Source: Ignavibacteriota bacterium (lineage in GTDB: Bacteria > Bacteroidota > Ignavibacteria > UBA10030 > SZUA-254). From it: a stretch of 38,695 nucleotides of DNA. The notes beneath the pieces were generated by a model, which made no database searches, had not been told where the DNA came from, and saw only the letters and a program-made list of their open reading frames with translations. The stretch's first letter is position 1. Every line of letters starts with the position of its first letter. The DNA is taken from assembly GCA_025358305.1 (NCBI GenBank), contig JANYJZ010000039.1:1-38695 (forward strand), read 5' to 3'. This document shows positions 8,425-14,569 of the stretch, one piece after another. The translations under genes and the position numbers were made by a program.

Positions 8425-9308
8425 GGAACCGCCTGGGACCTCTCGAGTTCTTCCGCGCGTCGCTCAAGACGGACGCCTACTATGCCGACGAGCTGGTCAA
8501 TATCTATCTCTTGCGTCCGCTTGCTGCGTTCATCGTCTGGCTCCTCTCTCCGACGCCGGTGACGCCGAACCAGGTGACGTTTGCCGCGATCATCGCCGGC
8601 TTCGCCGCAGCGTTCGCATATCTCGGGCAGACCCCCGCCGCCGTCGCCGTAGCGGGTCTTCTCGTGACGCTGAAAGACGTCCTCGACGACGCGGACGGCC
8701 AGCTTGCTCGCGCGAAACAGCTCTATTCCCGCCGGGGGAGGTTCATCGATTCAATAGGGGACTTTGCCGTCGATGTGGCGCTCTTCAGCGCGATCACCGC
8801 AGCGGTCTATCTCCGGGCTCCCTCGGCAGCAACGCTCGTCCTCGGTGCCGCCTCGTTCTTCGGCATCACCTTGCGCGTTTCATACCACGTCTACTACCAA
8901 GCCTCGTTTCTTCACCTCCAGGAGCGCTACACGCTCAACCGCATCGTCGAGGAGATCACCGAGGAGGACAGGAAGGGCGATCCGGTCGCGCTGCGGCTGC
9001 AGCGGGTCTTCGTGCTACTCTACGGCTGGCAGGACCGTCTTATGGGGAGTCTGGACCGGTGGTGTTTCGGCGGGGAACCGGGAACGGACGAGAGCGTCCA
9101 GTGGTACGGGGACCGCGCGGGGCTGCGGCTGTCGGGGCTTATGGGATTTGGAACGGAGTTCGCGCTCCTGACGATCTGTTCGCTGTGCGACGCGCTCGAG
9201 CTCTATCTCCTCCTCAACGTCGTCCTGATGAACGGGGTCTGGCTCGCGAGCATCCTCTACCGGAGGACGATCCTCGCACCGGGTCTTCGCCCGCCTGAGG
9301 ACCTCTAA
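8421..9308 (+). CDS. CDP-alcohol phosphatidyltransferase (second of a tandem pair)
   Basis: A 295-residue membrane enzyme of the same family as its upstream neighbour. It shares TPNQVT and the intact motif from DDADGQLAR to FIDSIGDF, with the D-x2-D-G-x2-A-R-x8-G-x3-D-x3-D spacing. Both proteins have a soluble insertion in the middle (here near 160-225), so they look like paralogues from an old duplication that now differ widely. The GTG start at 8421 overlaps the first gene's TGA by four bases, so the two are translationally coupled and may form a heteromer or make two head groups of one lipid class. The product lipids are unknown. The stop at 9308 is five bases from the convergent helicase fragment. 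Confidence 0.88.
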   Translation: MRNRLGPLEFFRASLKTDAYYADELVNIYLLRPLAAFIVWLLSPTPVTPNQVTFAAIIAGFAAAFAYLGQTPAAVAVAGLLVTLKDVLDDADGQLARAKQLYSRRGRFIDSIGDFAVDVALFSAITAAVYLRAPSAATLVLGAASFFGITLRVSYHVYYQASFLHLQERYTLNRIVEEITEEDRKGDPVALRLQRVFVLLYGWQDRLMGSLDRWCFGGEPGTDESVQWYGDRAGLRLSGLMGFGTEFALLTICSLCDALELYLLLNVVLMNGVWLASILYRRTILAPGLRPPEDL

Positions 9309-9312
9309 GCGC

Positions 9313-10365
9313 TCATTCCAGCTGGATGACCCACGGCTCGAGAAGGTTTTCGCTCAATCCCTCCAGAAACCTCGACGGCTTCGTCAGGATGAGGCCCGAC
9401 TCCCGGTCGTAGACGTTGATCGGGTAGGTGATGAACAGGTGTTCCTTCGCTCGGGTGCACGCCACGTACATGAGCCTCCGCTCCTCCTCCATCTCCTCGA
9501 TCGATTCTGCGGCCCGCGACGTCGGAAACCTCCCGTCGAGGGCGTAGAGCACGAACACGCTGTTCCATTCGAGCCCCTTTGCGCTGTGGATCGTCGAGAG
9601 GACGAGAAATTCCTCTTCGTGCCCGGGCGCGGTGATGTCGGCGACGCTCTCATTGGGGGGCTCAAGGGCGAGATCTGCCAGGAGCGTGCCGACGTTGTCG
9701 TAGCGCGAGGCGATCTGCTCGAACATCTCGAGGTCCTTCTTCCGTTTGGCGTGGTCGTCGTACCGGTTCTTGAAGACGGGATGGTAGTACGTGACGAGCC
9801 GGCTTACCTTGTCGGCGGGAGGGACGCGTTCCGGGGAGAGGGACTTCAGGAGCGAAAAAAGCTCGCGCACCGGCTCGGGGTAGCCGTGGTACTGCTCCCA
9901 GAACGAGGCGACGGTGCTCGTGGCGGTGCGCTGCTGGAGGATGCCGTCGATGATCTTCTCGGCCGAACGCGGGCCGATCCCGCCGATGAGAAGGAGGATC
10001 CTGTTCCACGAGACGGCGTCGCGCGGGTTCTCGAGGACACGAAGATACGCGATCATGTCCTTTACGTGCGAGGTCTCGATGAACTTGAAGCCCCCGAACT
10101 TCAGGAACGGGATGTTCGCCTTCGCGAACTCGATCTCAAGATCGAACGAGAGGAACGACGAGCGGAACAGTACGGCGATCTCGTCGAGCGGCACGCCCTG
10201 TTCGCGGAGCTCGAGGACCTTCTGGACGACGAACTTCGACTGCACGTTCTCGTTCTCGGCGATCATGAGCTGCGGAAGGGAGCCCTCCTTCGCGTTCGTG
10301 AAGAGCTTCTTCGCGAACTTGTGGCGGACCGGCTTCCCGGCGGGCTCCTGCGGGACCTGGGTCAC
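9313..10365 (-). CDS. UvrD/PcrA-type helicase, C-terminal half (split gene)
   Basis: A 350-residue protein with only the second half of a superfamily 1A helicase. From HKFAKKLFTN onward it matches the 2A/2B domains: IAVLFRSSFLSFDLE, motif V LSTIHSAKGLEWNSVFVL and motif VI EEERRLMYVACTRAKEHLF. Walker A, the DEYQDTN box and motif III are missing here and are found in the gene at 11192-12175. The first 14 residues (TQVPQEPAGKP region) do not look like helicase. The start is a GTG at 10365, overlapping the TGA of the lipoprotein gene as GTGA. Alone it cannot bind and hydrolyse ATP; it may assemble with the N-terminal half, or the pair may be a broken gene. Both halves keep their motifs, which argues against decay. 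Confidence 0.85.
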   Translation of the reverse strand: MTQVPQEPAGKPVRHKFAKKLFTNAKEGSLPQLMIAENENVQSKFVVQKVLELREQGVPLDEIAVLFRSSFLSFDLEIEFAKANIPFLKFGGFKFIETSHVKDMIAYLRVLENPRDAVSWNRILLLIGGIGPRSAEKIIDGILQQRTATSTVASFWEQYHGYPEPVRELFSLLKSLSPERVPPADKVSRLVTYYHPVFKNRYDDHAKRKKDLEMFEQIASRYDNVGTLLADLALEPPNESVADITAPGHEEEFLVLSTIHSAKGLEWNSVFVLYALDGRFPTSRAAESIEEMEEERRLMYVACTRAKEHLFITYPINVYDRESGLILTKPSRFLEGLSENLLEPWVIQLE

Positions 10366-11189
10366 GGCCGTCCGGGGCGGTAGACGCCGAACTGTGTGAC
10401 GAGGATGGGGCCGAATTTCGATCCTACGGAGGTCGAGCGGATGGAACGCAGGCCGTCATGCGTCAACCAGGTGTGGACCGGGGTCCCGGCGGCCTGTTCG
10501 ATCTTGTAGATGATGGCGCCCGCGACCCCCGGGCCCGGCATGTTGCCGGTGATGATGATCGGCGTGTGGAGATGAGTCTGCTCGAGCGATGCTAGCACTC
10601 CTTCGCATGCGCTCTGGTCCGCCTCCGACATCTTCTCCGGCATGTGCGTGCTCACGACCGCGATCTCCCTCACGCCAGCGTCGACGAGGCCGAGGAGGGC
10701 GGATTCGAAGTTCGTCGAGGAGATCCCCGTGTAGGGCGCGTTCTCGTGGGAGTTGATCGGATAGAGGCTGTAGATCGCATTGCCCCCCTGGCGGCCGGAG
10801 ACCGTGTTCGTTTCGCCGAACGCGCTCCGCATGCCGGTGCCTTGGGCGATCGCGGTGAAGATGTCGACGCGCGTCGCGACGGCCGGATACCGCGTCATTC
10901 CTTCGACGGCGAGAATGTCGAGCTTCTCCCCAAGGACCGTCCGGCAGAAATCGTCGATGTCCGCCTGCTCGACGCGGCGATTCACCGAGCTGAGGTCGAT
11001 GCTCCCGATGCTGAGCGTGATATCGGGCCCGGCAGGCTTCTTCTCGGAAGCGGGGGGAGCGGGCGGCGGCTGTTCGCTCTTTGTTGCCTCCTGAGGTGCG
11101 GGGCACCCGGCGAGGAGAAGGGCTGCGGCGATGAGGAGTGCGATGGAGATGGTTCTGTAGATCATGATCATATCCCGTCTCTGGTCCAT
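10362..11189 (-). CDS. Lipoprotein with endonuclease/exonuclease/phosphatase-like fold, embedded in the split helicase
   Basis: A 275-residue predicted lipoprotein. The signal sequence ends in a lipobox, LLAGC, followed by a Pro/Glu/Lys-rich linker. The rest resembles the EEP (DNase I-like) fold: a strand with LDILAVEGM, GNAIYSLYPI (compare GNAILSRYPI), VVSTHMPE (compare THL) and IIITGNMPG where active enzymes have a GDFN-like box. The catalytic Asp of that box is replaced by Asn and the following Asn is lost, so activity is doubtful. Start candidates are ATG 11189, two bases after the helicase N-half stop, and ATG codons six and eight residues later. It overlaps the helicase C-half by four bases. 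Its envelope location makes a direct role in the helicase unlikely. Confidence 0.75.
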   Translation of the reverse strand: MDQRRDMIMIYRTISIALLIAAALLLAGCPAPQEATKSEQPPPAPPASEKKPAGPDITLSIGSIDLSSVNRRVEQADIDDFCRTVLGEKLDILAVEGMTRYPAVATRVDIFTAIAQGTGMRSAFGETNTVSGRQGGNAIYSLYPINSHENAPYTGISSTNFESALLGLVDAGVREIAVVSTHMPEKMSEADQSACEGVLASLEQTHLHTPIIITGNMPGPGVAGAIIYKIEQAAGTPVHTWLTHDGLRSIRSTSVGSKFGPILVTQFGVYRPGRP

Positions 11190-11191
11190 GG

Positions 11192-12175
11192 TTAGTCGAT
11201 CGCGCGGTGGAGGATCTCGTTGGCGACGTTGAGGATCGCTTGGGTGCTGCGGAAGTTCTCCTCCAGCGTGATGATCTTGCATCCCGGAAATGCTTCCGGA
11301 AAATCGAGAATGTTGCGAATCGTCGCTCCGCGGAACGAGTAGATCGACTGGGCGTCGTCGCCGACCACCATGACGTTCTGGTGCTTGAACGCCAGGAGCT
11401 TGACGATAGCCGCCTGGATCTTGTTCGTGTCCTGGTATTCGTCCACCATGATGTACGTGTAGCGCTGGGAGAGCTCCGAGCGTACCGCTTCGTGCTCCAT
11501 GAGGAGCTTCATAAGGTATACGAGGAGGTCGTCGTAGTCCATGAGGTTGTGCGCGCGCTTGTATTCCTGATAGGCGACATGGACACTACGGATCTCCTCT
11601 TCCAGTTCGAGATAGTGCGGGTAGTCGGCGGCCAGGAGGTCCTTCACAGGCGTCACGGTGTTCACCGAGCGGCTGAAGAGGTCGTTGAGCGTCTCCTTCC
11701 TCGGGAAACGCCGCTGCTTCGTGTCGAGCTTCATCCTCGTCCTGAGGAGGTTGATGACGTCAGCGGCGTCCCCCTGGTCAAGGATGGAGAAACTCCGGTC
11801 GAACCCGAGGAGCGCGCCGTACTTCCGGAGGAGAGAGTTCGCGAACGAGTGGAACGTCCCGCCGGAGACCCTTTCGCAGCGGTGGTCGAGGACGATCGCC
11901 GCCCTGCGGAGCATCTCCTGGGAGGCCTTCCGGGTGAACGTCAGGAGGAGGATGTGTTCGGGTTTCACGCCCAATTCGACCAGGTAGGAGACCCGGTAGA
12001 CGATCGTGCGGGTCTTTCCGGTCCCCGCGCCGGCGATGATGAGGTGGGGTCCGTTCACGGATGTGGCGGCCTCGTACTGGGCGGCGTTGAGCTCCTTCTT
12101 GTAATCGACGGCGAAATGCTGCGGATGGACGAGATGGAGTTCTCCGGGCGCGCGCTTGATCGTGTATGTCTTCAT
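11192..12175 (-). CDS. UvrD/PcrA-type helicase, N-terminal half (split gene)
   Basis: A 327-residue protein with the first half of a superfamily 1A DNA helicase. It shows LNAAQYEAA (Q motif), Walker A IAGAGTGKTRT, the Ia region LLLTFTRKASQEM, the Walker B box VDEYQDTN, motif III GDDAQSIYSFRGA and motif IV LEENFRSTQAILNVANEI. It stops with TAA right after HRAID, where intact relatives continue into the KKLFTN segment now found in the gene at 9313-10365. The ATG at 12175 has AAGGA seven bases upstream, and a good promoter lies just before it. The three genes from here to 9313 are packed without gaps and are probably one transcript. Confidence 0.87.
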   Translation of the reverse strand: MKTYTIKRAPGELHLVHPQHFAVDYKKELNAAQYEAATSVNGPHLIIAGAGTGKTRTIVYRVSYLVELGVKPEHILLLTFTRKASQEMLRRAAIVLDHRCERVSGGTFHSFANSLLRKYGALLGFDRSFSILDQGDAADVINLLRTRMKLDTKQRRFPRKETLNDLFSRSVNTVTPVKDLLAADYPHYLELEEEIRSVHVAYQEYKRAHNLMDYDDLLVYLMKLLMEHEAVRSELSQRYTYIMVDEYQDTNKIQAAIVKLLAFKHQNVMVVGDDAQSIYSFRGATIRNILDFPEAFPGCKIITLEENFRSTQAILNVANEILHRAID

Positions 12176-12203
12176 GCCGGGATCCTTCGGACTGGTCGTT
12201 CTT

Positions 12204-12234
12204 CCAATATATCAAATGCCCGCGGGAATGGCAA
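12204..12234 (-). promoter_or_regulatory. Promoter for the split-helicase operon
   Basis: On the minus strand TTG (12234-12232), 20 bases, then TATATTGG (12211-12204). The predicted start of transcription is near 12198, giving a leader of about 23 bases that contains the AAGGA ribosome-binding sequence. Confidence 0.55.
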
Positions 12235-12268
12235 CGGTCCCTTTCCCAGAAAACGAACCCAGAAATCG

Positions 12269-12300
12269 AAGGGGGTCTTCCGTTTCAGGAAGACCCCCTT
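12269..12300 (-). terminator. Intrinsic terminator downstream of the M28 peptidase gene
   Basis: A perfect 13-base-pair inverted repeat (arms 12269-12281 and 12288-12300) with a six-base loop. It lies 44 bases beyond the M28 stop codon and before the helicase promoter. On the minus strand the stem ends in TT and is followed by a moderately T-rich stretch. Confidence 0.65.
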
Positions 12301-12343
12301 CAAATATGACAATCACCCGCGCTCAGGGCGATGGCGAGCGGTC

Positions 12344-14569
12344 TTATCCTTCGAGGGCCTTTCTCGCTTTGTCGATCTCCCGGGCGTACGACTCGAGCAC
12401 GCCGGAAGCGATCACGATTTGCTCCTGCGCCTCCTTCCATTTCCGCTGTTCAATCGCCTCACGGATCCCGGGGAGTGTCTTCACGCCGTATCCCGTGTAG
12501 AGCCCGGGGGCGTAGATCATGTGCGTGAACCAGGGGCGTCCCGGGAGTCCCTTCTCGCGGGTGAGCGAACGCTCTGCGCGGAAAAGGATCTCGTTGAGGG
12601 TGTTGAGCGCGGGTCCGGCGAGCGGCTTTCCGATGGAGTCGAACCGCGCCTTTGCGTCGCGGTAGGAGGTGGAGGCCTGCTGAACCTGTGTCAGAGCGTT
12701 CTGGAGCGGCGAGAAATTGAGAAATGGAACGGGGTCCTTGGGCGCCGGAGGGATGAACGTCTTCATCGGGTCGGAAGCGATCACCATGGAGTTGTCGGCG
12801 AGGAGCTTGTTCGTCGCCGCCGTTTCGTCGCGCATGTTGTCGGCGAGCTGCATCACCTCTTTGACGAACTTGCCGACCGTTTCGGTGAAGTTGGAAAATT
12901 CGAACGGAAGGATCGCGGCATCGGCGAACCGGAGGACCATTCTGCCGCCTGTCCTGGCGAGCGTCACGCCATACATGAACGTCGGGTCGCCGAAGCGCCG
13001 GTAATGGTCGAACGAATCGTAGATCGAATGATACTCGCCGCCGTCGTTCTCCCCGCCGTATCCCATGCTGAGGCTTGCGATCCCCAGGTGCTGCAGAAAC
13101 GGCGTAAAATCCGATCCCGAACCGAGTGAGGAAAGACGGGGCTCGCTCCGGTCGCGCGCCTCCTGCCGCTCCTCCGGAGAGCCGTACGCGAGCGTCCGCG
13201 CCCGGGCTCGCGCTGCGACCGACACGTGCGTCTGCGGGTCCGTCACGTCGCGGGTGACGCCGGAGACGAACTTCTCGAGCGTCTGCGATCCGCCCGCGCC
13301 GAAGAACCCGCGTCCGTTGCCGTCGGTGTTGATGTAGACGACGCCGTTCTGCGTCAGCTCTTTCGCATGCGTCTCGACCCACTCGGTCGAACCGAGGAGA
13401 CCGGGCTCTTCGCCGTCCCATGCGGCATAGATGATCGTGCGTTTCGGCTTCCAGCCGGTCTTCAGGAGCGCGCCAAGGCCCTTCGCTTCCGCCATCATGG
13501 CCACTTGGCCGCTCAGCGGATCGCCTGCCCCGTTGACCCAGGCGTCGTGATGATTTCCCCGCATGACCCACTGGTCGGGATATTCCGTTCCCGGGATCTT
13601 CGCGATGACGTCATAGATCGGCTTTAGCGTCCAGTCGAACGCCAGGCGCATGTGGACCGTCGCGGGACCGGGTCCGAGATGATAGGTGATGGGCAGTGCG
13701 CCCTTCCATTCGTCGGGGGCGACCGGGCCGCCGAGGGCGCTCAGGAGCGGCAGGGCATCACGGTAGGCGATGGGAAGCACCGGGATCTTCGTCAGCGTCT
13801 TGGCTTCGGTGAGCTTCAGCCGCTTCGCATCCTTCGTGGCGCCGACGAACGGCGTGAGGGGATCGCCGGCGTAGATCGGCATGTCCGCGACGGAGCCGCG
13901 CTGCGCGCCCGAAGGCGGGCGGAACGAGCCCTTCGGGTAGTCGTCCCCCTGAAAGTAGCCGTCGTCGCGAGGGTCGGAATAGATGATGCAGCCGATCGCG
14001 CCGTGTTCCGCCGCGACCTTCGGCTTTATCCCACGCCACGAACCGCCGTAGCGCGCGATGACGATCGCACCCTTGACGTCGATGCCGGTCTTCGCAAGCT
14101 CGTCGTAATCGGCGGGCACGCCGTAGTTGACGTAGACCAGGCGCCCGGTGACGTCCCCGTCGATGGAATAGGCGTTGTACGTCGGAAGCTGCTCGCTTGT
14201 CTGGCCCGAGGTCGCATCCTCGGAGAGGATCTCCTCCTTCAGCGAGGCCGTGAACGCCGTCGGTGCGGTCATCTCCAGCGCCCGGGTGACCGGCGTCGGG
14301 AAAAGGACCTGGAACTCCTCGATGTGCGTGTCAAAACCCCACGCGGTGAAATGGGCGGCGATGAACTCCGCGTTCTGTTTGTCATAGGGCGATCCGACAT
14401 GGTGCGGATGCGCGCTGAGGACCTGCATCCAGGAGCGTATGGAATCGGCGTTGAGGGCCTGGTCGAATGTGGATTCGAGGGCCGCGGCGCCGGGCCCCTG
14501 TGCCCAGAGGCGGGCAGCGGCGAGGAGGATGAGCAAAGCGAAACTGGTCGATCGGCGAAGACACGTCAT
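12344..14569 (-). CDS. Secreted M28 metallopeptidase (glutamate carboxypeptidase II-like)
   Basis: A 741-residue zinc peptidase resembling human glutamate carboxypeptidase II (PSMA/NAALADase), normally about 700-750 residues. A signal peptide covers the first 22 or so residues, ending in RLWAQ. A PA-type insertion follows (YGGSWRGIKPKVAAEHGAIG), then the zinc site: the His in GNHHDAW, the Asp in GAGDPLSG, EE in WDGEEPGLLGS, the Asp in YINTDGN and the His in YHSIYDSF. A C-terminal helical dimerisation-like domain ends the protein. All ligands are present, so it should be an active exopeptidase for periplasmic or external peptides. The ATG at 14569 is chosen because it begins the signal peptide; an in-frame ATG 21 codons earlier adds a hydrophilic stretch. 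Confidence 0.9.
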   Translation of the reverse strand: MTCLRRSTSFALLILLAAARLWAQGPGAAALESTFDQALNADSIRSWMQVLSAHPHHVGSPYDKQNAEFIAAHFTAWGFDTHIEEFQVLFPTPVTRALEMTAPTAFTASLKEEILSEDATSGQTSEQLPTYNAYSIDGDVTGRLVYVNYGVPADYDELAKTGIDVKGAIVIARYGGSWRGIKPKVAAEHGAIGCIIYSDPRDDGYFQGDDYPKGSFRPPSGAQRGSVADMPIYAGDPLTPFVGATKDAKRLKLTEAKTLTKIPVLPIAYRDALPLLSALGGPVAPDEWKGALPITYHLGPGPATVHMRLAFDWTLKPIYDVIAKIPGTEYPDQWVMRGNHHDAWVNGAGDPLSGQVAMMAEAKGLGALLKTGWKPKRTIIYAAWDGEEPGLLGSTEWVETHAKELTQNGVVYINTDGNGRGFFGAGGSQTLEKFVSGVTRDVTDPQTHVSVAARARARTLAYGSPEERQEARDRSEPRLSSLGSGSDFTPFLQHLGIASLSMGYGGENDGGEYHSIYDSFDHYRRFGDPTFMYGVTLARTGGRMVLRFADAAILPFEFSNFTETVGKFVKEVMQLADNMRDETAATNKLLADNSMVIASDPMKTFIPPAPKDPVPFLNFSPLQNALTQVQQASTSYRDAKARFDSIGKPLAGPALNTLNEILFRAERSLTREKGLPGRPWFTHMIYAPGLYTGYGVKTLPGIREAIEQRKWKEAQEQIVIASGVLESYAREIDKARKALEG

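Follow-up and report, generated by a model that had tools for sequence, protein, structure and literature searches.

The window analysed here is a stretch of 38,695 nucleotides from an Ignavibacteriota bacterium (contig JANYJZ010000039.1). The sequence of a UvrD-type helicase is divided there into two genes, hereafter named the N-half and the C-half, with a lipoprotein gene between them (Table 1). The coordinates, frames and junctions given for the three open reading frames (ORFs) in the initial annotation were borne out by the sequence, as were the completeness of the lipoprotein ORF and the presence of its lipobox. The N-half contains Walker A (GAGTGKT), DEYQDTN, motif III and motif IV, and we take it to consist of domains 1A and 1B together with the first strand and helix of 2A. 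The C-half, in which TIHSAKGLEW and EEERRLMYVACTRAK are both intact, presumably comprises the remainder of 2A, with what we take to be motifs V and VI, and 2B.

At the first junction, the N-half ends with GAC TAA, followed by CC and by the lipoprotein ATG at 11189. At the second, the overlap of stop and start codons suggests that translation of the lipoprotein and of the C-half may be coupled. A consensus scan of positions 9200-12500 returned one promoter-like site, where 0.5 are expected, and none between the three genes. Since this sole site precedes the N-half and the junctions are tight, the three genes look like a single operon. Two neighbouring CDP-alcohol phosphatidyltransferase genes (PF01066; 7120-9308, plus strand) are convergent with it. 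Between the operon and an M28 peptidase gene, a long perfect hairpin devoid of T-run is found at about 12270-12301; it is absent from the terminator scan output.

Table 1. Features of the split helicase locus in the window
Feature	Coordinates	Strand	Description	Basis
N-subunit gene of split helicase	11192..12175	-	327 aa	PF00580 match, PDB PcrA alignment, AF2 model, orthologues
C-subunit gene of split helicase	9313..10365	-	350 aa, GTG start	PF13361, PDB PcrA, AF2 model
Lipoprotein gene between the halves	10362..11189	-	275 aa, lipobox LLAGC	sequence
Junction 1, N-half/lipoprotein	11189..11194	-	TAA, two bases, ATG	sequence
Junction 2, lipoprotein/C-half	10362..10365	-	GTGA: lipoprotein TGA overlaps C-half GTG	sequence
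Promoter-like site upstream of N-half	12206..12234	-	TTGCCA-17-TATATT	consensus match

The N-half matches the full UvrD N-terminal ATPase domain (PF00580, UvrD-helicase: 1-271/271, E = 1e-76), and the C-half the full UvrD C-terminal domain (PF13361, UvrD_C: 26-347/350, E = 5.5e-47). The best stretches of the NCBIfam pcrA model are 3-295 for the N-half and 299-637 for the C-half, and PDB PcrA chains are covered over 11-303 and 309-648, respectively. In both cases the stretches nearly abut, so that almost nothing is missing or duplicated at the break. Like PcrA, UvrD and Rep, the split helicase has both catalytic domains, all motifs and 2B, matches PF00580 plus PF13361, and shares their fold. 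Unlike them, it does not carry both motor domains in one polypeptide: in the window, as in all of the split clade described below, there are two ORFs, giving two polypeptides of 327 and 350 aa, compared with a PcrA chain of 724 aa. Moreover, the halves score well under the cut-off of the PcrA equivalog TIGR01073 (277.6 bits for N and 155.4 for C, versus 911.2). The best reading of the pair is a UvrD-like SF1A helicase whose ATP site spans the subunit boundary.

The source genome (G000; 3.2 Mb, 42 contigs, completeness 100) contains two further PF00580 matches, in a 751-aa frame that is 37% identical to the N-half and in a 1255-aa frame. The initial annotation had considered that an intact copy of the split gene might exist elsewhere; this PF00580 search of the genome found none.

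Distribution and origin of the split

We searched 98 genomes of the order for both halves, with E-values up to 1e-75 for the N-half and up to 1e-60 for the C-half. Each half was found in 66 genomes and both together in 62; at least one was present in 70 of the 98, the N-half alone in 4 and the C-half alone in 4. Neither was found in 27 of the 98 genomes, indicating that the gene pair is dispensable. A fused relative in G053 (681 aa, 45% identical), which belongs to another branch, was not included in the co-presence count. Contig ends account for at least six of the eight single-half genomes: the missing partner is cut in G005, G019, G034, G081 and G083, and the contig of G011 begins within the lipoprotein gene. 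In G054, the N-half lies in two frames and falls just below threshold, and in G009 (61% complete) the N-half is present and the C-half was not found. A second N-half tail fragment was observed at a contig end in G009 (C234, L068, 4782-4889), 2.3 kb downstream of the full N-half.

A search of the class (294 genomes, 203 matching) revealed that the helicase is also split in family f9, from a different order. Among the matches listed in this search, all 99 other same-class rows are single frames of 501-770 aa. Among the best 80 loci of a scan of named genomes, 73 run through the break, 6 are split and 1 is cut at the break. Two loci flagged as split by the script (L216 and L219) pass the junction, stop 305 and 279 aa further on, and were counted as fused; L238 also ends early, and the frame of L232 continues past the end of the contig. 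The six split loci all come from UBA10030- or Ignavibacteria-type MAGs, and the nearest named relatives are Bacteroidetes bacterium UBA10030 and Ignavibacteria MAGs.

Fused orthologues of about 660-740 aa were found in Kryptonium, Ignavibacteria, Chlorobiota, Desulfobacterales, Omnitrophota and others. They are the same protein as the split pair from end to end (47-61% identity over the N-part in the fused named loci), but encoded by one uninterrupted ORF. Throughout the split clade, N-halves terminate at nearly the same place, give or take a few codons: relative to the end of the window's N-half, they extend 0 to 11 residues further or fall up to 2 residues short. At this place the fused orthologues continue straight on, in agreement with the initial placement of the break just after motif IV, where relatives continue. 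The same break recurs in dozens of other species, far beyond chance, and does not reflect an isolated insertion.

In a quick tree of 111 concatenated rows, the split/fused trait changes once, with all 60 split rows in a single clade (SH-aLRT 99). In a mixture-model tree, built on 63 of these rows after removal of G053, L138 (a long row), 33 fused rows and half of f6, the 46 split rows again all group together (support 100/99), and their clade was present in 100% of 200 bootstrap trees. One fission fits all these rows. Families branch by taxonomy, so that descent is vertical; the placement of f9 nearest to f5 is unsure (support 87).

Both halves are under strong purifying selection. The dN/dS ratio is 0.017-0.060 for the N-half and 0.016-0.070 for the C-half (10 of 13 pairs each, the others being saturated), similar to the 0.013-0.060 of the four fused pairs for which an estimate was obtained. 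We then considered the 137 columns conserved in at least 95% of 50 fused proteins: 127 are equally conserved in the split proteins (n = 60), namely 70/78 in the N-half and 57/59 in the C-half, and the ten exceptions are for the most part mild replacements.

These data bear on the possibility that the window shows an assembly artefact, the lipoprotein being misjoined into the helicase, or a recent pseudogene in decay. Most genomes are indeed metagenome assemblies, and the gene is frameshifted in G054 and G057. However, many independent assemblies show the same break, the gap being empty in some and filled by different genes in others, and dN/dS values are much lower than 1, so that this explanation has practically no chance of being correct; the misassembly and the neutral drift that the initial annotation had envisaged are both contradicted. 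The frameshifts, which affect both halves in L096 (G057) and L102 (G054) of genus g33, reflect either assembly error or decay; in G042, of the same genus, both halves are intact.

The space between the two genes

We surveyed the gap, measured from the N-half stop to the first matched C-half residue, in 58 other loci having both halves on the same stretch, after dropping the broken genes of G054 and G057 and the second copy in G055. In the latter genome, both halves occur twice on contig C31, as identical copies in inverted orientation 50 kb apart (L079 and L080), due to a duplication or to a palindromic misassembly.

The gap is devoid of any gene in 38 of the 58 loci, with at most 50 bp in 20 of them and 51-344 bp in 18. 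A lipoprotein of the window type is present in 9 loci. In 10 others, all from f5, the gap holds a homocysteine S-methyltransferase gene (e.g. L092 5352-6254; PF02574), as counted by the GGCCGT motif and confirmed with Pfam for 3 of the 10; in G048 a DUF456 gene lies beside it. The last locus, in G078, has a 23S rRNA intervening-sequence protein gene (L116 3676-4056; PF05635). Insertion of a mobile element was also considered, and dropped because the gap is empty in 38 of 58 relatives.

Since the fission is common to the whole split clade and the lipoprotein is missing from these 38 gaps, it need not have split anything. The lipoprotein is a tenant of the intergenic space and not the cause of the split, and the earlier suggestion that it had been inserted into a repair gene by an unusual mechanism is not supported. 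The locus is a clear example of an odd gene-in-gene layout produced by an ancient fission and the later turnover of lodgers.

The halves are not always neighbours. In G086 they are 7.2 kb apart with other genes in between, and in each of the 6 f9 genomes they occupy separate contigs. The clearest of these is G100, where the contig of the N-half continues for 20.9 kb beyond it and that of the C-half has 2.6 kb before it, the partner being absent from both stretches, and where the C-half has its own ATG and lies among unrelated genes. In two other f9 genomes the halves could still be within a few kb of each other, as contig ends exclude only about 2.5 kb in G128, and the N-half itself is cut in G137.

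This diversity allowed us to evaluate whether a full-length protein is restored by ribosomal frameshifting, bypassing or protein trans-splicing, as the very small gaps of 20 loci might suggest. The frame offset from N to C is 0, 1 and 2 in 18, 20 and 20 of the 58 loci, equally common, therefore, and genes of 300 aa intervene in others. Together with the distance in G086 and the separate contigs of f9, this excludes fusion by frameshift or bypass as a general route. As for trans-splicing, C-halves start near the first conserved residues and N-halves end on one point, leaving no room for a split intein. We regard restoration of the full-length protein as extremely improbable.

Predicted structure and proposed function of the pair

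The AF2 model of the N-half (pLDDT 87.4) superimposes on residues 4-304 of PcrA (3pjr_A; Z 33.2, 297 residues, 2.9 A). That of the C-half (pLDDT 86.1) superimposes on residues 326-722 of UvrD1 (9dci_A; Z 26.1, 313 residues, 4.1 A) and on residues 301-647 of E. coli UvrD (3lfu; Z 25.6, 315 residues). By the usual domain limits, the break would fall inside domain 2A, after its first strand and helix, and not between domains. On either side of it the models of the lone halves are poor: the N-half tail (301-327) has block pLDDT values of 64, 59 and 59, and residues 1-30 of the C-half are poorly ordered. Poor modelling of the lone tail is expected if it packs on the partner, although a low pLDDT is weak evidence of docking when it occurs at the end of a chain. 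From these models we infer that the tail completes 2A of the partner and may tie the subunits together.

The initial annotation had proposed that a functional two-part helicase was possible. This view is strengthened by motifs kept on both sides, the lack of frameshift in the window, and purifying selection. We consider it very probable that an old, single fission gave rise to a two-subunit helicase, and that the lipoprotein is a later, unrelated lodger. In the ancestor of the order and f9, a UvrD-like SF1A gene of about 670 aa would have been divided immediately downstream of motif IV, within a surface loop, and its two products would have become separate subunits, meeting without a peptide bond. 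The N-subunit would supply 1A and 1B, and with them the Walker sites; its C-terminal tail, formed by the strand and helix of motif IV, would be part of 2A. The remainder of 2A, with motifs V and VI, would come from the C-subunit, as would the regulatory domain 2B. By docking on 2A, the tail would hold the pair together; ATP would be bound and hydrolysed at the 1A/2A interface, now between subunits, and the motor would run 3' to 5' on single strands. The lipoprotein would be exported, unrelated to the helicase, and lodged later between two genes already independent. That the pair forms an obligate heterodimeric SF1A helicase, with its catalytic site between two gene products, which survived as long as the order and whose genes became unlinked in f9, is in our opinion likely.

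Alternatively, the halves may have parted ways, each working as a stand-alone protein (the N-half as an ATPase or single-strand binder, the C-half as a DNA-binding protein or scaffold) with no joint helicase. The distance between the genes in f9 and G086 would fit such a scenario, as would the activity that PMC3503981 claims for each of the two pieces of a Plasmodium UvrD divided within motif IV; that claim also bears on the initial proposal that neither half could work alone. But the C-half keeps nearly all its conserved columns although its motifs V and VI have no nucleotide site of their own, and the halves occur together far more often than alone, most lone cases being explained by contig ends. 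Independent functions are therefore unlikely, and the two-subunit helicase is the reading we retain.

No precedent for a split UvrD or PcrA was found in searches of an open-access library. AddAB, AdnAB and RecBCD, like the pair proposed here, are multi-subunit machines with UvrD-like motors; each of their motor cores lies within one polypeptide. Nicked PcrA crystals (PDB entries 1qhh and 2pjr) also present PcrA as several chains held together, but these were presumably cut in vitro, at other places, and not separately encoded. In Nanoarchaeum equitans, reverse gyrase, an enzyme that includes a helicase, is naturally the product of two genes (PMC3491384). Unlike the window pair, it is archaeal and a different enzyme. 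Its break is, we assume, between the helicase and topoisomerase parts, and not between motor domains.

UvrD-type helicases serve as the textbook example of an inchworm motor made of a single chain, and we find here a natural, long-lived version cut between the motor domains. It makes it possible to test whether stepping needs a covalent link, and whether subunit exchange regulates the motor. It also bears on the debate over monomers and dimers in the UvrD family, in which UvrD dimers are described as pairing through 2B (PMC13238157). Lastly, it provides a ready-made split helicase for engineering.

The lipoprotein

The lipoprotein family evolves fast, with 21-42% identity among the 18 members of our alignment A5. 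The window protein has no Pfam match at E 1, PF03372 included; 10 of the 18 members match PF03372, with a best E-value of 1.2e-5. Searches against the PDB gave no match at E 1 with the window sequence, and chance-level matches only with the 18-row profile, two of them being EEP entries (E 0.36 and 1.8). By eye, the positions in A5 where we would expect the catalytic Glu, His and Asp are mostly occupied by other residues. The lipoprotein is probably a remote and inactive relative of the endonuclease/exonuclease/phosphatase fold.

Could it be a functional third partner of the helicase? Its junctions are tight, its translation possibly coupled, and it occupies the gap in f1 and in some of f2. Yet its signal predicts that it is exported, and most gaps lack it. 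Furthermore, in nine f6 genomes the lipoprotein and helicase genes are on separate contigs, and no match to the lipoprotein was found genome-wide in G003, G006, G015 and G025, all of which keep both halves. A role in the helicase is therefore very unlikely. As a lodger, the lipoprotein entered the gap either once, before the divergence of f1 and f2, or twice.
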